Part shown: positions 40,975-50,085 of the stretch, one piece after another
Layout: every line of letters begins with the position of its first letter
How positions within the stretch are numbered: the first letter of the stretch is position 1
Assembly (NCBI GenBank): GCA_001692895.1
Contig: KV748221.1
Coordinates: 1,343,056-1,407,055, forward strand
Direction of reading: 5' to 3'
Length of the DNA stretch: 64,000 nucleotides
Source: Cenococcum geophilum 1.58
Lineage: Eukaryota > Ascomycota > Dothideomycetes > Gloniales > Gloniaceae
Made by a program: the position numbers and the translations under genes
Notes under the pieces: model-generated
The model's database searches: none
What the model was told of the DNA's origin: nothing
The model's input: the letters and a program-made list of their open reading frames with translations, nothing else

Positions 40975-41660
40975 ATTACTTGGTAACGTCCGTCCCTGCG
41001 TACCGAGAAACCCCTTGTGGCGAGAAAAATAATAGGTACCTTAACTTTAAGCAATTTAGACTCTGTATAAATATCGAAAGTTTTTAAAGTTTTGTATTAG
41101 TTATATACTGTAACCACTCCTAAACACTCCTGACCCGGCTACCTAGAAAATTATATTCGTATTATTATCGTCGCGCCTAGTTTACAGAGAGCCTTATTTT
41201 ATGGCACAACAGAACTCCTCCACCACAGCACCACTATTAAGCTTTTACCGTTGTTAAAACTTATAAATTATCCTTATCCAAGCCTCTGAGTCCTTCAGAA
41301 CTACTGAGAAGTTATCGCCAGCCTTGTGGCTGCCGTGTGGCGCAAATTCATGCAGTGTCGGCGTGACGGTTGATACTTCTAATCAAATCCCTAACTCCGC
41401 ACAATTATTTACAGTGTAATTTCTTACGTAATGAACCATATCCAAAGTCCGGCCAAGCCTGTGGCTCTGCAGCCAGGGCCACAAAGTGTGGCGTTCTTCT
41501 AGAACTTTCCATAAGCAGCCACGTGCCTACCCTCGCTGGCGCCCTCCCACTCGTTCATTGCTGCCTCTCCATCTCTATCATCGCAGTAAGTTAGCATGAG
41601 CGACCGCGCCAGTGAAGCCCTTGCAGAGGGCTTTCTGCCGGGAGAGCCTCGAATATACGA
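40975..41660 (+). repeat. Left inverted-repeat arm flanking the gene island
   Basis: About 690 bp that pairs, in reverse orientation, with 47283-50088 once the pogo insertion is set aside. Well-matched blocks are at 41020-41070 (CGAGAAAAATAATAGGTACC), 41195-41260, 41320-41350 and 41479-41655. The arms are clearly diverged, and the left arm is the more RIP-damaged. The outer edge is uncertain by some tens of bases. Confidence 0.75.
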
Positions 41661-42705: not shown

Positions 42706-44454
42706 TTACAACAGTTCCACTGTCTCCACATCGAACGTGGCGTCAAACAGAACCTCGCAGACACACTCACCCGTCTCTGTGACATTGGCCGAGTCCATGA
42801 TTCCCCCCAGCCTCCGTGCTGCAGTTATCGGATTACCGTTAGTCGGCGTGTTGTCCAGCGACTGACTCACGACAACCACTGCCCATTTGCCGTCTGGTTC
42901 CCTGAGAGGAAGCCGGAAGCTTCCACCGTAGTAATTCGAAACACCTTTCCACTTTCTTACGTCGATCATGTGCTTGTCAGCGCAAATCCCGGCCAGATAG
43001 CTCTTGGATCTGCCAGGAGCGAGCTCGACTCGGATGATCTCGGGCCCTGATAGGCGCAACTTGTGCACCACGTTCGCATCAGATGGGGTCGCTTCCTCGG
43101 AGACGGTTGCGCCATTGGCACTGATGGCTCTCGCGCGGACTGGGGATCCGCGATGGAAGACGGTCAGCTCGATGTGTGTCGAGGGCGGACAAGCGAAGGC
43201 CAGAATACGGTCGGGCAGGCGCAGGGCGGTGACGTCCGTGGGGTTGTCCGGTCCGGGATCGAGTAAAACGGATGAATCCTCGCCAATGAGAATAAATGGA
43301 GCCGCGAGAATGGGGAAGTTCACGGCTGCCACGCCCTCGAGCTGGTGCTTGAAGCCACGCACACAGAGCGGTTTGCGGTTGTAGTCAAGCCTCTTATCGA
43401 TATCTGCGCACGCTGTTCCGGGATGGAGCACTCGCTGTATGACACGCTCGGGACTCTTGATTGGAAAGCTATGCGCGACGACGAAGCGCTCAGGGTCTTT
43501 GTCGCCGGCTGGGGTCCAAATCTGCGAGCAAATGTTGACCGTGGCACCGGGGCTGTACACTTCGCGATGAGTGAAGACTCGCTTGCCGACCAGGACGTGC
43601 TCATTTGGCCGCACCTCGGTGGTCTCCACGCTGCTGGAGCCGGCAGTCGTGTCGCGTGTATAGCCCCAGGTCGCTTTGCTTTCCCAATGCCGCCCAGCAA
43701 ACGGAAGTCGTGGGAGCGGGGCGTCGATGTGAATACGTTCCCGAATCGTCTTTACACCCGGGCGCGGAACCGGACCAGTCCTCTGTCCCCATCGAGTTGG
43801 ATCCTCAGCATCCGATGCAGCAGCAGCGACCCAGGCGGCTGCTGCGGCGCTAGTCAGAATTGCAGTCGTGGGACTTGGAGCCGTCCAAGTCAAGATGTGC
43901 GACAGCGGCCCACCGCAGGCGAGCCATTCGATTGTGCCACCGACGTAATCCCGTTTTGATGGAAAGGGTTGAATCACATCGTCGCCGATGTCGCCGTCCC
44001 AAACATGGGCGTTGGAGATGGCCATGGATGCATTACTTCCAGCATCAAAGCAGATTCCACCAAGGGTCCCCCAACTCATAGCGAAGTTGTGGAGTCCTGT
44101 CAGGATAGAGGTGGATGTTCCGCCAACGAGCGGTGCCTCGCGCTGTTCTCCGCGCTGACCAGTCGGCCGTTTGTTGGTAGGACAGTTGAGCCGGCGTGAA
44201 CTCCTCATCTGCACCACATCTGTCTTGTAGCCTCCTACTTCATTCTGTATGTGTTCGCTGCCACGCTCTCTGATTTCATCCGCCCCGGTGAGTTTTTCCC
44301 AGACGTAGTAATGGAGCGAGGCCACCATTGTCGGCTTACCCCCGACCAACTTCAGACCGACCCCGACCGATACAATGTTCGGGTCGGCAGCGAGCCGTTG
44401 TGACTCTGCATAAGCCACGTCCTGGAGTGGCCTCCGTGATTGTGAGGTCGCCAT
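42706..44454 (-). CDS. Trypsin-like protease, His-half protein (582 aa)
   Basis: An intronless gene of 582 residues. I take the ATG at 44454 (MATSQSRRPLQDVAYAESQR) because the longer frame opens only with TTG, and the ATG has A at -3 and G at +4. Residues 25-85 resemble the N-terminal domain that precedes Nal1-like trypsin folds (IVSVGVGLKLVGGKPT, then GGYKTDVVQ). Residues 129-175 are the first protease barrel: GTLGGICFD, SNAHVWDGD with His150 as the likely catalytic base, then GDDVIQPF. A hydrophobic Ala-rich segment (about 184-213) may sit in or on a membrane. The rest, about 230-582, is beta-rich and unrecognised. No GDSG nucleophile motif occurs anywhere, so alone it should not be an active serine protease. 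It lies 492 bp downstream of the Ser-half gene on the same strand. Base composition is free of RIP. Family assignment is by motif; the partner role is inference. Confidence 0.8.
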   Translation of the reverse strand: MATSQSRRPLQDVAYAESQRLAADPNIVSVGVGLKLVGGKPTMVASLHYYVWEKLTGADEIRERGSEHIQNEVGGYKTDVVQMRSSRRLNCPTNKRPTGQRGEQREAPLVGGTSTSILTGLHNFAMSWGTLGGICFDAGSNASMAISNAHVWDGDIGDDVIQPFPSKRDYVGGTIEWLACGGPLSHILTWTAPSPTTAILTSAAAAAWVAAAASDAEDPTRWGQRTGPVPRPGVKTIRERIHIDAPLPRLPFAGRHWESKATWGYTRDTTAGSSSVETTEVRPNEHVLVGKRVFTHREVYSPGATVNICSQIWTPAGDKDPERFVVAHSFPIKSPERVIQRVLHPGTACADIDKRLDYNRKPLCVRGFKHQLEGVAAVNFPILAAPFILIGEDSSVLLDPGPDNPTDVTALRLPDRILAFACPPSTHIELTVFHRGSPVRARAISANGATVSEEATPSDANVVHKLRLSGPEIIRVELAPGRSKSYLAGICADKHMIDVRKWKGVSNYYGGSFRLPLREPDGKWAVVVVSQSLDNTPTNGNPITAARRLGGIMDSANVTETGECVCEVLFDATFDVETVELL

Positions 44455-44946
44455 TATGCTCACAGTGCAAGGCAATATGTTTGTGTGAAGAACAGAATCA
44501 AGCGCTCCGTGGTCTTTCAGCTTCAGGACAGGGCTGCTTTCCCCGCTTTTCAGTCCTCAGCCTTGAGTAATTGCCAAGTCCCGACAGAAGCGAAGTTCAG
44601 CTCTGTCATTATTTGTCAACTTGACGGTCACAATTTATGTTCTTCTTCAGAAGATGTGATGACCACTTTTTTTGTCAATTGGTAGCTGTTTGAAACATCT
44701 AGGTTTGTATGGCAAAGAGCTGGTCTCCCTTGGCTCGAGCCTCTTGCGATGCATACTACGGTTCATCAGTCTCTAGTGACCTCTACACATTTCTTTCTGC
44801 ATATCTAGTTATTTGTGTCCATGGCATTGAGCATTAAACCATTGCAGCCAAGACTAAGTACTAGTAGATTGGGAAACTGTAACTACATGCCCGTTCAGTT
44901 CATATCTCATATCTGTTATCTGCCACAACACATGTCACCACATTCT
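44455..44946 (-). other. Intergenic spacer between the two protease genes
   Basis: 492 bp without an open gene. It must hold the terminator of the Ser-half gene and the promoter of the His-half gene if they are transcribed separately. No convincing TATA box was seen on the minus strand; the region is RIP-free. Confidence 0.5.
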
Positions 44947-46926
44947 CTACGCGAACCGAGCTCCCACAGCCGCGAGTGCATCCTCTATTCGACAAGCGGT
45001 CGCGCTGCTACCATCCTCGAACCCTGCGTGATTCAGACCGATGACTGCAAGACTCGACCTCTGGAACCAGAGCGAGCCCGAGTCCCCTTTACAGCTAACG
45101 GGATCCCCTGTATCGTTTGGCTTGATGTTGAGTTGATTTTTAAACCATATTTTGCTGCCGTCGTCGTCCTCTTTACGCGAGTGGAGAGGCACTAGAGTTC
45201 CGACGAGTGTGCCAGAGGTGGTTCCGCTTCGCGCGCCGGACTTGAAAACACGGAAGGCGTCCTCCGCCGCGGGATCGCCAGGGTTCTCTGCGAGATTCTG
45301 TATCATTGCCGCTATCTGTGCATTAGTGAGGATTGTTCCGGGCGTGTCAATCTGACTGTCAAGCGCCTGAATAGGATTTGTCGACACGTCGCCAGACGCC
45401 GCATCCAAGACAGTAAAGATAGCAGGCGTAAGACCACGACTGCCATTCAGAGTCACAACCGCAATATCTACAGAGCCAGCTTCCTCTGGCGGCGGGGGGT
45501 CCGGTTTCTCCGCCGTGGCATTCAACACCCGATGCGCCAATGTGCCGATTACATCGTTATAGCCTGCATTCGCGAGGTCCGCACCGCCTGACACTGCCGC
45601 AGCAAGGGTTAGGATGAGGGCGACAATGATTAATAGGAGCTTCCACCACGGGTCCTGGAACGGGATGGGGCCGTACTGGCCCTCGAAGGGTTGGTTGTAC
45701 TCGACAGAGTAGTCAACCTCGGTCGGGAAGAGGAAAATGGTGAGGCCTGGGTCCGGTGTGCCCGTCCAATCTCCGCCTGGACTCGTGTTGTCGCCTCCTC
45801 CTCCACCACCTGTCCCACCGCTGGCACAGCAGCAGGCGAGCTGTCGCCAGAGTGCACAAAGGTCCACCTCTTTTCCGTCAAGAAAGGCTCGCAGTTGCGC
45901 CCGCACGTATTCGAGCGTTCTCTGATTGCAGCCCCTAGTTCCACCACCGCTTCCTCCAACTCCCCCTGGACCTCCTCCACCTCCACCCCCACCCGCGCCA
46001 CCTATGTCCAATTTTCGTAGGATGCTGACAGCGTGCCTGAAAGTGTTCAAATCAACAGCCATCTGCTTGATGGAGGCTGTCATGACACCAACATCACATC
46101 GTGAGATGAATGCCTTCTGGGACGGGTCATATGTGGTCCGCGTAACTGACATGGGTGCGCTCGCTGCCTTGTTGATGAGGGCAACTGTCTCCGCTCCCTG
46201 ATCAGTCATTACCTGCAGTTCCACCTGGTGCTTTCGTATGGCCGCCTGGGAGACGTCGACTTTGAAGAAGATGCGCCTCGTTGCCCACGCCTCGAGACGG
46301 CCGACAACGGCCCTGCCGCCAACTACTTGCTGGCCCACTGCTTCCTGGTCTTTCACACTCCAGCTGTCGATGACGCTAACACCCCCTGCGGACAGCCAGG
46401 CACGGCAACGATCGCTCAGTCCCACCCGGGCGGTTGGCGGCCAGGCGACTGTCCAAATGTTCTGAATGCGCACAGCCATGAGATACTGTCCAAGCGTCGC
46501 TTCAAATATGCCCTCGGGCATTGCCTGGAGACTGCCTGGTAAGACTGCAAAAGGCGGCACGGACTGACCAACCATGCCCAACTTGTCCAGCCGAATCACC
46601 AAGTCGTCAAAGTCGCGGTCGCCTCCAGGCTCCGTCTTGTCCTCCGATTCGACTGTCCAAGAAAGGAAAGGACTAGTACTAATGGTAGAGAGGCCTCGAA
46701 TGAAGCTCGGTTGCCAGCCATGAGTGCCGTCGTTGTGGTCGATTGATAAAGTCCAGTCTGCCTGACCATTGCCATATACATCCATTGTCGTGCCGACATA
46801 GCCAGCGAGGATTTTTGTGCCGGCTGCTGAACCGCTGGCGACCACCCGCTGTGCCCAGGCGGCATTCCGTCCTGTGACGGTGATACGCCAATCGCCTGTG
46901 AAAGTAATCTGGGTCTGATCTGACAT
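44947..46926 (-). CDS. DUF4114-like / membrane / trypsin-like Ser-half protein (659 aa)
   Basis: An intronless gene of 659 residues. The start is the ATG at 46926 (MSDQTQITFTGDWRITVTG); the frame extends upstream only to a GTG and that stretch reads as a pyrimidine-rich leader. Residues 5-115 form a beta-rich domain ending GGDRDFDDLVIRLDKLG, the acidic motif of DUF4114-like calcium-binding domains. A second region (about 150-300) is unrecognised. A Gly-rich linker is at 309-331 and a Cys cluster at 364-367. A membrane segment follows at 429-445 (LLLIIVALILTLAAAV). The C-terminus is a protease half: DVIGTLAH, VDIAVVTL with Asp487, then SCKGDSGSLWF with Ser616 as nucleophile and VIGLNHAGF. The SNAHV-type His barrel is absent here and present in the next gene. 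Function as a two-part protease is inference. Confidence 0.82.
   Translation of the reverse strand: MSDQTQITFTGDWRITVTGRNAAWAQRVVASGSAAGTKILAGYVGTTMDVYGNGQADWTLSIDHNDGTHGWQPSFIRGLSTISTSPFLSWTVESEDKTEPGGDRDFDDLVIRLDKLGMVGQSVPPFAVLPGSLQAMPEGIFEATLGQYLMAVRIQNIWTVAWPPTARVGLSDRCRAWLSAGGVSVIDSWSVKDQEAVGQQVVGGRAVVGRLEAWATRRIFFKVDVSQAAIRKHQVELQVMTDQGAETVALINKAASAPMSVTRTTYDPSQKAFISRCDVGVMTASIKQMAVDLNTFRHAVSILRKLDIGGAGGGGGGGGPGGVGGSGGGTRGCNQRTLEYVRAQLRAFLDGKEVDLCALWRQLACCCASGGTGGGGGGDNTSPGGDWTGTPDPGLTIFLFPTEVDYSVEYNQPFEGQYGPIPFQDPWWKLLLIIVALILTLAAAVSGGADLANAGYNDVIGTLAHRVLNATAEKPDPPPPEEAGSVDIAVVTLNGSRGLTPAIFTVLDAASGDVSTNPIQALDSQIDTPGTILTNAQIAAMIQNLAENPGDPAAEDAFRVFKSGARSGTTSGTLVGTLVPLHSRKEDDDGSKIWFKNQLNIKPNDTGDPVSCKGDSGSLWFQRSSLAVIGLNHAGFEDGSSATACRIEDALAAVGARFA
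45940..46000 (-). repeat. Gly-codon low-complexity run inside the Ser-half gene
   Basis: A stretch of GGN codons with few other residues, encoding a flexible linker that separates the N-terminal domains from the Cys-rich, membrane and protease parts. On the plus strand it reads as a Pro-rich frame, which is a shadow. Confidence 0.85.
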
Positions 46927-47273: not shown

Positions 47274-47335
47274 AATGTCCGAGGCTCTCCTGGCAGAAAG
47301 CTCTCTGCAAGAGCTTCACTGGCGCGATCGCTCAT
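47274..47335 (-). pseudogene. Second, inverted pogo-like transposase start
   Basis: On the minus strand from an ATG at 47335: MSDRASEALAESFLPGEPRT, nearly identical to the fragment at 41597 on the other side of the gene island. The similarity stops after about 20 codons. It forms the inner end of the right inverted-repeat arm. Confidence 0.75.
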
Positions 47336-47754
47336 GCCAACTTACTGCGATGATGGAGATGGAGTGAGAGGCAGCCGAGTGGGAGGCCGCCAGCGAAAGT
47401 AGGCACGGGGCTGCTCATGGAAAGTTCTAGAAGAACGCCACACTTTAAATGATTCGGTATAATGTACAATGTAACACGTCTAGCGTGGCTGTAAATATTA
47501 TATTATGTAAGCGCGGTAAATTCTCATCAAGACGCTTGGCGTTTTCTCCCGCGTGGCGACCTTGCATGAATTTGTGTGCCACAGCAGCCACAAAGGCTCA
47601 TGACGATTTCTAGCATGGTAGTGAGGCCCTAAAGCTTCGATAAGATCCTTTTATAAGTATTAGGAGTGATAAGAGCTCGATAGTGGAGCTGTAGTGAAGG
47701 AACTCTTTTGCGTCATAAATGGGGACTTCCCGCAAATTAGGTGCAAAGGCGATA

Positions 47755-47798
47755 GAAGAGGCCGCCAGGCAATGCACGCTTACAAAGCAATGCACGGT
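47755..47798 (+). repeat. Left terminal inverted repeat of the pogo/Fot1-like element
   Basis: 44 bp, an exact reverse complement of 49844-49887. It contains an internal near-repeat of GCAATGCACG. Confidence 0.92.
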
Positions 47799-47857
47799 GC
47801 TCCCCCACCAAAATCGTCAAAATCAAAATCGTCAAATATCAACACCAACGCACCAAA

Positions 47858-49741
47858 ATGGACTCAATTGAAGCTGCAATTGCTGATTTAAGACTTCAAG
47901 ATAAGCCGAATATTACTGCCACTGCCAAAAAGCATAGGTGCAACCGTATGACTCTCTCTAAGCGCTTTCGGAACGTTACCGGATCTAGGGCTACCGCGCA
48001 CGATTCAATGAGATTACTCAATCAGATACAGTTAAAAGTGCTTATACAATATATTAACAACCTCACTAAACGTGGGCTACCTCCTACTATTACAATAGTT
48101 CAAAACCTAGCTGCTAGAATTGCAGGAAGGCAGCTAGGAGAGCACTAGGCGGCCCGCTGGCTTCTTGCTTATAAGAATAAGCTCAAATCCGCATACCTTC
48201 TTCTAATTAACTCTGCACGTAAAAAGGCTAATTTAGCGCTATATTATAGCTTATATTTTAAGCTATTAGGTAGGAAAATAATTAAGTATAATATACAGCT
48301 AGGGAATACGTATAATATAGATAAAAAGGGCTTTCTTATTAGTTTCCTTAAAAAGGTAAAGAGGATCTTTTTAAAGAAGGCTTTTAATGCTAGTAGAAGT
48401 TAAAATATAAGCTAGGATAGAAATAGAGAGTGGATTACTATATTAGCAACTATTTGCGCTAACGGAATAAGCCTCTTGCCCGGTCTTATTTACTAAGCCG
48501 TCTTAGGTAATATTTAAAACTCCTAGCTATAGGATTATAACCCCAATAAACAGAGCTGCTTCTTTAGCTTATTAGTAACAGGCTGGACGAATAATAAGCT
48601 AGGCTACTTATAGTTAACAACTCTATTTAATCGGGAAATAAAAGCAAAAGCTTATAGGGACTAGGGGTTGCTTATTATTAACGGCCACGGCTCTTATATT
48701 AATATAAGGTTTATTAACTACTACCATAAGTATAAGATCTTGCTAGCTGTTTATCTACCTCATTTAACGCACAGATTGCAGCCTCTTAATGTCTCTCTCT
48801 TCTCGCCGCTCGCTATATTTTACAGTTAAGAATTAAGCCAGTTTACCACTAATTCTAAAGGGTTTACGCGCCTTATAAAGAGAGACTTTTTCTAACTATT
48901 CTAGGTGGCCTATAAAAAAGCTTTTGTAGCTAAGAATATACAAAGTGGCTAGGAAAAGACTGGTATTCACCCTTTTAAGCTAGAGGTTGTTTTAGATAAG
49001 TTTATATTAAAAGAAGCCCCTATAAAGAAAAGGCCTACATCCAGTAAGTCTTCTAACTTGGTATTAACTACTACCGACTAAAGGAAGATTGAGAGGACGC
49101 TTAAGGCGGTAGCTACCAATATATTTGCCCCTAAAGTATAATAGCTTACTAATACGATACACAGTCTAGCAGCCATGAATATCCTCCTTACATCGCGTGT
49201 TTAAGGCTACTAGCGAGCTCTTAAGAATAAATAGAAGAAGCGCCAATGCTAGAAACCTCTTTTTTATAAGCTCGCCGCGCAGAACAATAGTAGTGCTATA
49301 TTTTATAGTCCTAAGAAGGTACAGGAAGCTCGTAATCTTCTTATCCAATAGGAGGAAGATAGGAAGCATAAGGTAGCTCTTAAGGCTAATAAAAAGCTTT
49401 AAAGGCAACTATAGAAGGATAAGAAGAGGCGTTTAATAGAATAAAGAAAGGAACAGCGGGTATATAACAAGGAGCAGCGAGAGAGGGAAGCTTGGGCCAG
49501 GAAGCTCGCTATATAGGAGGCTAAGGAAGCTAAGCGACTTAAGCAGCAACTACAAAGCAACGCTAAACAGGCAAGGAGGTTAAAAAGGAAGCAAAATAAG
49601 GTCATATTGGATACAGAGAATGTTGAGATTGTTGCTATACGTGAGGAGGAGGTGGTAGAGGTGGAAACAGCTGATGTACGGCCTCGACGCCAGAAACGCC
49701 TGCCAAGCAATCTTAAGGACTATGAAATAGATATAGCCTAA
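47858..49741 (+). pseudogene. DDE_1-type transposase of the pogo/Fot1-like element
   Basis: The frame runs 627 codons from ATG 47858 to TAA 49741 with no net shift. Residues 1-96 are open (MDSIEAAIADLRLQDKPNIT, a psq-type HTH with TATAKKHRCNRMTLSKRF). The first stop is TAG at 48146, where the family has Trp, and others follow. Of the catalytic triad the first Asp is kept (YNIDKKGF, though the following Glu is now Lys). The second (INGHGSY, codon 48680) and third (QPLNVSLF, codon 48788) are Asn, all by G-to-A. The C-terminal third is a highly charged Lys/Glu/Arg coiled-coil tail to about residue 610. It is inactive. Length is somewhat above the roughly 540 residues common for Fot1 relatives because of this tail. 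Confidence 0.9.
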
Positions 49742-49843
49742 TTCAGCGACTTTTAGAGCCTCTAAAACACCAGAGATTAATTTAATTTGACGATTTATAT
49801 GGGTGTAAATAGTCTCATCTTTTACATCAATTTGGGCTTGAGG

Positions 49844-49887
49844 ACCGTGCATTGCTTTGTAAGCGTGCATTGCCTGGCGGCCTCTTC
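49844..49887 (-). repeat. Right terminal inverted repeat of the pogo/Fot1-like element
   Basis: Exact partner of 47755-47798; followed by the duplicated TA. Confidence 0.92.
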
Positions 49888-50085
49888 TAATGCAAACGCA
49901 ATTCTTTAGGTGGGAAGGGTCCATTATGTTCAGGAGTGACCACAGAACACAACTTATTTAAAACTATTGGAAATATCAGTGTATGTATAGACTTTAAGTT
50001 GCTCAAAGTCAAAGTACCCATTGTTTTTCTCGGCATGGTAGGTTTCTCGCCACCCAGGGAGGAACATTAGTTCAATTTGCTTCTC

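Follow-up and report, generated by a model that had tools for sequence, protein, structure and literature searches.

Trypsin-fold proteases normally fold from one chain, and in the trypsin topology the catalytic His and Asp both belong to the first barrel. HtrA/Deg proteases are likewise single-chain and carry PDZ domains. Among described systems, NAL1 (NARROW LEAF 1) and the NAL1-like bacterial proteases share with the locus presented here an N-domain and the motifs GTLG, SNxHV, QPG, IGTL, VDAA and GDSG in this order. A likeness of a different sort is offered by split inteins and engineered split enzymes, whose activity is expected only after two chains have re-associated. In the literature covered, which mostly excludes subscription journals, no report on the gene pair described below or on a natural split trypsin-like protease was found.

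Organisation of the locus

The window, meaning the whole stretch of 64,000 nucleotides of Cenococcum geophilum 1.58 DNA that was analysed, contains two open reading frames that are neighbours on the minus strand, as the original prediction had described. The principal features are:

44947-46926, minus strand: gene 1 (P0002), 659 aa; extra N-domain, X_N, TM1 and P_C
42706-44454, minus strand: gene 2 (P0001), 582 aa; P_N, TM2-like segment and X_C
44455..44946, minus strand: intergenic region, 492 nt, GC 0.43
41324..41656, no strand assigned: left arm of an inverted repeat, a transposon-like remnant flanking the gene pair
47275..47593, no strand assigned: right arm of the inverted repeat, three pieces, 81-93% complementary

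Each gene has one match in its own genome. Profile alignments indicate that the two genes carry complementary halves of two proteins simultaneously, a predicted protease P and a second protein X, in a cross-fused layout with gene 1 as X_N-P_C and gene 2 as P_N-X_C.

Distribution of the pair in bacteria

The pair was recovered from eight bacteria belonging to Pseudomonadota and Myxococcota, adjacent and in the same order as in the fungus; the order is fixed and the two genes co-occur in all nine pairs. When occurrence as single genes was checked in 195 Myxococcota genomes, full-length gene 2 was present in two of them, the same two that have full-length gene 1. Four deep groups, with 31-40% identity between groups, make up the nine pairs, and two members (L004 and L005) are 91-96% identical, so that the number of independent cases is well below nine. 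Neighbouring genes, mostly judged by eye, vary among pair loci, with MFS-type transporters, in different orientations, as the sole recurrent neighbours. PADLOC models of known anti-phage defence gave no match at E 0.1 to the six proteins compared.

The eight bacterial pairs have an intergenic gap of 9-16 nt, vs 492 nt in the fungus, and due to these short gaps the bacterial pair is presumed to be one operon, whose genes would be co-transcribed. Short gaps, together with the same reading frame for both genes in six of nine pairs (chance of at least 6/9, 0.042), would also suit the production of a single long permuted chain from both frames by stop read-through or frameshift. This is highly improbable, since the two genes are out of frame in L004, L005 and L047, GGAG or GAGG lies ahead of gene 2 in seven of the eight bacterial pairs, and the fungal gap has a further in-frame TGA as the fourth codon of its 492 nt. 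As a general mechanism, read-through was rejected on the three out-of-frame pairs.

Division of the predicted protease

The original prediction held that gene 2 carries GTLGG and SNAHV with His150 and lacks GDSG, and that gene 1 carries VIGTL, VDIAV with Asp487 and GDSGSLW with Ser616 and lacks a His block. Both descriptions agree with the sequences of the reading frames, in which the protease parts are located as follows:

44950..45555, minus strand: P_C (gene 1 residues 458-659), IGTL strand, Asp block and second barrel
45466..45468, minus strand: Asp487 codon, predicted catalytic, D in 9/9 pairs
45079..45081, minus strand: Ser616 codon, predicted nucleophile in GDSGS, S in 9/9 pairs
43906..44427, minus strand: P_N (gene 2 residues 10-183), NAL1-like N-domain plus the initial portion of barrel 1, His block included
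44005..44007, minus strand: His150 codon, predicted catalytic, H in 9/9 pairs

A single-chain protease HMM of 461 positions was made from 11 bacterial proteases among 15 available matches to the C-part only. Excluded were L025/L056 and L042/L055, two proteins of 212 aa in which the motifs read SSYHV and ADSG, L041, which has a 607-aa frame with both motifs, and L038, and three further C-part-only matches (L060, L061 and L063) lay outside the HMM set. This profile matches NAL1 structures with an E-value of 1.8e-15; the match of gene 1 to it follows from selection and that of gene 2 is independent. Fungal gene 2 covers HMM positions 51-190 (31.7 bits) and fungal gene 1 covers positions 246-352 (52.0 bits), while 500 shuffles of each protein reached maxima of 1.2 and 5.9 bits, respectively. 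Taking all nine pairs, the profile stretch covered by gene 2 begins at 45-52 and finishes at 174-210, and that covered by gene 1 begins at 194-281 and finishes at 352. By hhalign, P_N aligns with single-chain protease positions 51-213 (98.7%, E 1.4e-16) and P_C with positions 203-357 (99.0%, E 8e-18). Positions 203-213, in the region of the IGTL strand, are shared by both alignments, which makes the packing ambiguous. NAL1-like homology across the protease region is thus present in both genes in complementary profile parts, and neither fungal protein matches both profile halves in one chain.

Fungal gene 2 matches the first half of a further profile, the protease PHROG_20754 (E 5.7e-9), to which fungal gene 1 gave no match at E 0.1. 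The two products of the Archangium pair (L003) are both matched by this profile, one on each half. Pfam and NCBIfam scans of both fungal proteins returned no protease family; weak Pfam matches in the gene 2 alignment to MG2 (three of five members, best 5.1e-4) and NAL1_N (one of five, 0.072) are not relied on. PDB searches with the fungal proteins or their five-row profiles yielded no protease, the matches from one search being located at or around a glycine-rich stretch, and viral contigs searched with L003 gene 1 and two single-chain proteases contained no relatives. At the level of sequence P is split between the two genes, and profile complementarity, co-occurrence in all nine pairs and the invariant triad strongly support the proposal that one trypsin-like chain has been divided over two partner proteins.

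The three catalytic residues do not reside in one chain, His being in gene 2 and Asp and Ser in gene 1, and because His and Asp share the first barrel, the cut runs through barrel 1 and not between the barrels. All nine pairs have the same His, Asp, Ser and GDSGS, G614, D615, G617 and S618 of gene 1 are likewise invariant, and N148 of gene 2, the Asn two before His, is kept throughout. It could be argued that the halves are non-catalytic and that the barrel pieces act only as scaffold or binding domains in a pair without protease activity, given that many trypsin-like folds are pseudo-proteases and that no assembled site appeared in the low-confidence structure prediction (AF2 on the L003 read-through piece with 8 rows, pLDDT 42, pTM 0.29, without coordinates). 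We regard this as unlikely, since these residues are invariant despite the deep divergence between groups, and since two short single-chain relatives carry ADSG instead of GDSG, so that the motif can drift within the family. Retention of His, Asp and Ser also disfavours the earlier alternative of two inactive descendants, and proteolytic activity of the assembled pair is predicted. The modelled Archangium homologue of P_C, a low-confidence model, resembles the C-terminal barrel of HtrA/NAL1; VIA-align of this model gave second-barrel matches only, where absence of others is not evidence.

Division of protein X and hydrophobic segments

The other half of each gene is half of X, a complementarity that lay beyond the view of the original prediction. 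Its parts, along with the N-terminal region of gene 1, are:

46597..46926, minus strand: gene 1 N-terminal ~110 aa, DUF4114-like (weak), Pfam E 0.16, below cut-off
45577..46575, minus strand: X_N (gene 1 residues 118-450), front half of X through the first hydrophobic segment
45583..45639, minus strand: TM1 (gene 1 residues 430-448), immediately following the QYGPIPFQDPWWK motif
43813..43869, minus strand: TM2-like Ala-rich segment (gene 2 residues 196-214), weak hydrophobicity
42709..43902, minus strand: X_C (gene 2 residues 185-582), rear half of X together with its second hydrophobic segment

Single-chain X proteins are bacterial and archaeal and uncharacterised; two members scanned had no Pfam family above cut-off, and NCBIfam choice_anch_X matched one X at a score about the cut-off over 21 residues only. 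X_N aligns with X 5-268 (hhalign 99.9%, E 3e-36) and X_C with X 288-535 (99.8%, E 4e-28). The alignment begins after the N-terminal ~110 aa of gene 1; two of the five sequences in the gene 1 alignment matched DUF4114 (best 0.12), a weak match that is not relied on. Front half, rear half and hydrophobic segments of the X family are all present in the pair, TM1 and the TM2-like segment corresponding to the two hydrophobic segments of X, and X, as aligned, is split between the two genes. The arrangement of X as a single gene with Y, a protein of ~280 aa, directly upstream is not that of the pair, since Y accompanies single-chain X in eight of nine X loci, plus L070, and neither the window nor any of the pair loci contained a Y match. 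One X locus (L006) adjoins Baseplate_J, Tail_P2_I-like and DUF6519 genes, and no such genes of an extracellular contractile injection system (eCIS) were recognised in pair loci, where most neighbour ORFs were judged by eye; an eCIS function for the pair was considered, a link being supported by one X locus and by no pair locus.

With both P and X complementary and the genes adjacent in all nine pairs, it is very improbable that the halves are completed by other partners, such as further trypsin-like proteins encoded in that genome. Genomes G002, G465 and G293 do contain, besides the pair, other genes matching the gene 1 C-part, but neighbours differ between pair loci, as noted above, apart from the transporters.

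The original prediction placed a hydrophobic segment beside each half. This holds for gene 1, in which TM1 has a Kyte-Doolittle value of 2.61 (2.57-2.92 over all nine pairs), and only weakly for gene 2, in which the TM2-like segment reaches 1.36 (1.36-2.02 over the nine pairs), is not the top window in four of nine proteins and is exceeded in the fungus by a stretch at residue 372 (1.87). The suggestion that the halves meet at a membrane is unproven, because P_N precedes the weak segment and gene 2 has no obvious signal peptide by eye. Because the segment that closes X_N is strongly transmembrane-like, P_C should sit across the membrane from X_N. P_N would then have to reach the P_C side without an obvious signal peptide, which counts against re-pairing of the chains.

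Origin of the fungal copy

The fungal copy is intact, 68% identical to that of a Methylocystis plasmid, and retains 135 of 142 invariant residues, and is to this extent conserved. Its GC content of 0.58 vs 0.30-0.43 in window bins outside 42-48 kb, as well as its longer branch in the gene 2 tree (0.33, with 0.20 and 0.28 for two neighbours), could mean an assembly contaminant or a dead insertion irrelevant to the fungus. However, this is quite improbable, as the pair is embedded in a contig of 1.4 Mb or more, between inverted transposon-like arms, the left of which (41324..41656) is partially matched on further contigs of this genome, and as the gap is 492 nt long rather than 9-16 and the invariant residues are largely retained. 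The fungal pair is probably a bacterial operon taken up by horizontal transfer, and is presumably expressed in the fungus. Two CCAAT motifs, which may be chance occurrences, lie in the 492-nt gap.

Proposed model of assembly

It is fairly probable, judging from the sequences, that the products of the two genes re-pair to make up a single active site, such that cross-fusion of P and X gives a protease only upon assembly. According to this model, a NAL1-like trypsin-fold protease P is cross-fused with X, a protein of two hydrophobic segments. The arrangement may have originated when a circularly permuted P gene was inserted in frame within the inter-helix loop of X, the new genes 1 and 2 being separated by the stop and start of P itself. 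X_N would then re-pair with X_C, bringing the His-bearing strands of gene 2 to the Asp-bearing strand and second barrel of gene 1, and beta-strand complementation would complete barrel 1 along with the catalytic triad. The fungus would have acquired the pair whole, with subsequent widening of the gap to 492 nt, and therefore gene 2 could have its own promoter.

A broader proposal, advanced tentatively and with chances a little below even, is that of a natural two-protein AND gate, in which one in-frame integration of a permuted protease generated two cross-fused chains that form a protease only when the X halves re-pair, and which spread among bacteria and entered a fungus as a working two-gene unit. 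If true, a naturally split trypsin-fold protease, cut through barrel 1, would constitute a new route to conditional proteolysis and could serve as a natural basis for split-protease sensors, and its retention by a eukaryote would be a striking case of a bacterial two-gene unit useful only when paired. The significance, if any, of horizontal gene transfer in the evolution of C. geophilum is posed as an open question in a 2025 review (PMC11799279), and the fungal pair bears on this question.

Comparison with known systems

NAL1-like proteins are one chain, whereas the fungal and bacterial pair is cut between His and Asp, has its pieces in permuted gene order and has each of them fused to half of another protein. 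PHROG_20754, too, spans both halves in one chain, unlike the pair. The likeness to HtrA/Deg proteases lies at the level of the fold and comes from a weak model. Single-chain X shares with the pair the same sequence halves, the two hydrophobic segments and the motifs PFQDPWWK and SDxRDPxRxGQ, but it is one gene without a protease, and gene 1 of the pair has an extra N-domain. Scanning the two fungal proteins against Pfam revealed no splicing domain, and in contrast to split inteins and engineered split enzymes, each protease half is joined by cross-fusion to half of a second protein.

Motifs and protease homology of the two genes

The two fungal genes are read in the window as follows.

44947-46926, minus strand: gene 1, 659 aa, intact uninterrupted ORF
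42706-44454, minus strand: gene 2, 582 aa, intact uninterrupted ORF

A search of the fungus's own genome (177 Mb) gave one match for each. The original prediction, that the catalytic blocks of one trypsin-like protease are divided between these genes, agrees with the motifs read: gene 2 contains GTLGG and SNAHV and lacks GDSG, while gene 1 contains VIGTL, VDIAV and GDSGSLW and lacks the His block.

Genome searches of a set of 397 Methylocystis-order genomes and of 195 Myxococcota revealed fifteen proteins matched by the C-terminal part of gene 1 alone, of which 11 were used to build an HMM of single-chain proteases. Ten of these 11 have [ST]NxHV followed by GDSG and the eleventh has SSYHV with GDSG. 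Of the four proteins not used, one has both motifs, and two are Myxococcota relatives of 212 aa (loci L055 and L056) that carry SSYHV with ADSG replacing GDSG, and hence their catalysis may differ. A profile of eight of the 11 proteases found the crystal structures of rice NAL1 (8has, E 1.8e-15). On the single-chain proteases, the alignment of gene 2 covers the first part (51-213) and that of gene 1 the last (203-357), the gene 1 match being by selection, since its profile had found these proteases, and the gene 2 match being independent. On the external family PHROG_20754 'protease', the Archangium pair was split in the same manner, with gene 2 covering 4-165 (E 2.2e-19) and gene 1 covering 215-317 (E 3.2e-4). 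Fungal gene 2 matched 10-159 of this family (E 5.7e-9), and fungal gene 1 gave no match to it at E 0.1.

Occurrence of the pair in bacteria

Scanning of GTDB contigs recovered the two genes as neighbours in Rugamonas aquatica (64% and 62% identity), Archangium (32% and 31%) and Methylocystis suflitae, as well as in an alphaproteobacterial MAG. The pair is also present on a Methylocystis parvus plasmid (67.7% and 68.0%), where both products are annotated as hypothetical proteins, and genome-set searches added three more, in genomes G293 (Methylocystis order), G465 (Archangium phylum) and G1073 (Methylocystis genus). Matches in G1081 and G1062 were counted as the alphaproteobacterial MAG and M. 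parvus again, giving a total of eight bacterial pairs besides the fungal one. In all nine, gene 2 comes directly after gene 1 in the same orientation; the gap between them is 9-16 nt in the eight bacteria as compared to 492 nt in the fungal pair.

The genome sets searched gave no support for a wide occurrence of one gene without the other, which would argue against a split protease. Full-length gene 1 is present in 2 of 195 Myxococcota genomes and full-length gene 2 adjoins it in the same two; in five other genomes of this set gene 2 matched only in part, in four cases over the protease N-part. In the other, partly overlapping sets, full-length gene 1 was found in 2/397, 1/399, 1/60 and 4/39 genomes, with gene 2 beside every one. 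Genome G981 has an N-terminal fragment of gene 1 (L068, 7295-7867; about 105 profile positions) with neither its remainder nor gene 2 detected among frames of at least 80 aa, and is apparently a decayed pair.

Several further features of these loci were observed. A 172-aa protein of G803 (L069, 6986-7501) consists of the gene 1 N-terminal domain and a His-rich tail. G1073 holds the most divergent pair, and its gene 2 (L067, 8619-10349) has a duplicated NAL1-like N-domain. The M. parvus plasmid pair (L015, 5027-11573) has as neighbours TniQ and TniB, a Mu-type transposase and an MFS transporter, together with a peptidase that is annotated as S53 yet matches Pfam Peptidase_S8. A further ORF, judged by eye to be MFS-like and oppositely oriented, is located close to the Rugamonas pair.

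Conservation among the nine pairs

His150 and Asn148 of gene 2, and Asp487, Ser616 and the GDSGS residues of gene 1, are identical in all nine pairs, which form four deep groups sharing only 31-40% identity. The fungus keeps 72 of 76 gene 1 columns and 63 of 66 gene 2 columns invariant in the eight bacteria; its losses of 4 and 3 are inside the range obtained on leaving out each other member in turn (1-14 and 0-5, respectively), though above those of its closest bacterial relatives. The fungus, M. parvus and Rugamonas cluster with a support of 100; their order has a joint support of 52 and the gene trees disagree on it. Branch lengths in the joint tree are 0.24, 0.16 and 0.31, respectively. 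The gene 2 tree gives 0.33 for the fungus, which is longer than the 0.20 for M. parvus and the 0.28 for Rugamonas.

Surroundings of the fungal copy

The fungal pair lies in a GC-rich island (0.58 in the genes) within AT-rich DNA, internal to a contig that is 1.4 Mb or longer, and is bordered by the following elements.

41324-41656 and 47275-47593: inverted-repeat arms flanking the pair, three pieces, 81-93% complementary
40984-41126 and 49927-50069: outer arm pair, 71% complementary
47753-49889: nested Tc5/pogo-like transposon adjoining the right arm, 50-nt terminal inverted repeats, 98% complementary

The first ORF of the transposon matches HTH_Tnp_Tc5 just under the cut-off. Part of the left arm has nine further matches (72-93% identity) on other contigs of the same genome, and these inverted transposon-like arms might mark the vehicle or the target of insertion. 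The 492-nt gap has a GC content of 0.43 and two CCAAT motifs, which would give gene 2 room for a promoter of its own, as a eukaryote would need.

Cross-fusion with a second bacterial protein

The remaining parts of both genes match a second, uncharacterised bacterial protein, X, found as a single chain of ~500-540 aa in records from Paenibacillus, Saccharibacteria, Pontibacter, Rhodovibrio, the archaeon Halosimplex, Brocadia, Desmonostoc and Shewanella. Gene 1 aligned to X 5-268, ending just past the first hydrophobic segment of X, and gene 2 to 288-535, starting just ahead of the second; the match of gene 1 came by selection, via PFQDPWWK, and that of gene 2 is independent. Since the genes match complementary parts of both the protease and X, a split, cross-fused architecture is shown at the sequence level: gene 1 joins the front half of X to the protease C-part, and gene 2 the protease N-part to the rear half of X. 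With the X profile, two of the 195 Myxococcota and two of the 397 Methylocystis-order genomes matched, which are the four known pairs there, and each time the match is split between the two genes, stopping at 265-292 in gene 1 and starting at 275-306 in gene 2.

The Rugamonas genus also holds single-chain X (G1029, L070). A ~280-aa protein with a PWW motif, Y, lies directly upstream of single-chain X in eight of the nine X loci of the GTDB scan (L006-L010 and L012-L014) and in L070; a search of the pair loci found no Y. In Paenibacillus (L006, 1-9569), Y and X come after Baseplate_J, Tail_P2_I-like and DUF6519 genes, which suggests that X may there be part of a contractile injection system; DUF6519 is described as an eCIS tail-fibre domain in PMC12923769.

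Proposed origin and mechanism

This layout could have arisen by in-frame insertion of a circularly permuted protease gene into the inter-helix loop of X, which would give, in order, the front half of X, the protease C-part, a stop, a start, the protease N-part and the rear half of X. The two protease halves share about 10 profile positions (203-213) around the IGTL strand, an overlap that would be consistent with permutation by duplication. X is treated here as the ancestral form, given that it was found in several phyla and the pair in two; the reverse direction, deletion of the protease from the pair to leave single-chain X, may instead have occurred.

No account of this pair, or of a natural split trypsin-like protease, was found in a literature search that covered few subscription papers. 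The most likely reading, held with fair though not high confidence, is a two-chain protease completed on assembly. In trypsin-like folds the catalytic His and Asp are both in the first barrel, and a cut between them therefore passes through that barrel; thus reassembly would be a strand complementation rather than the docking of two finished barrels.
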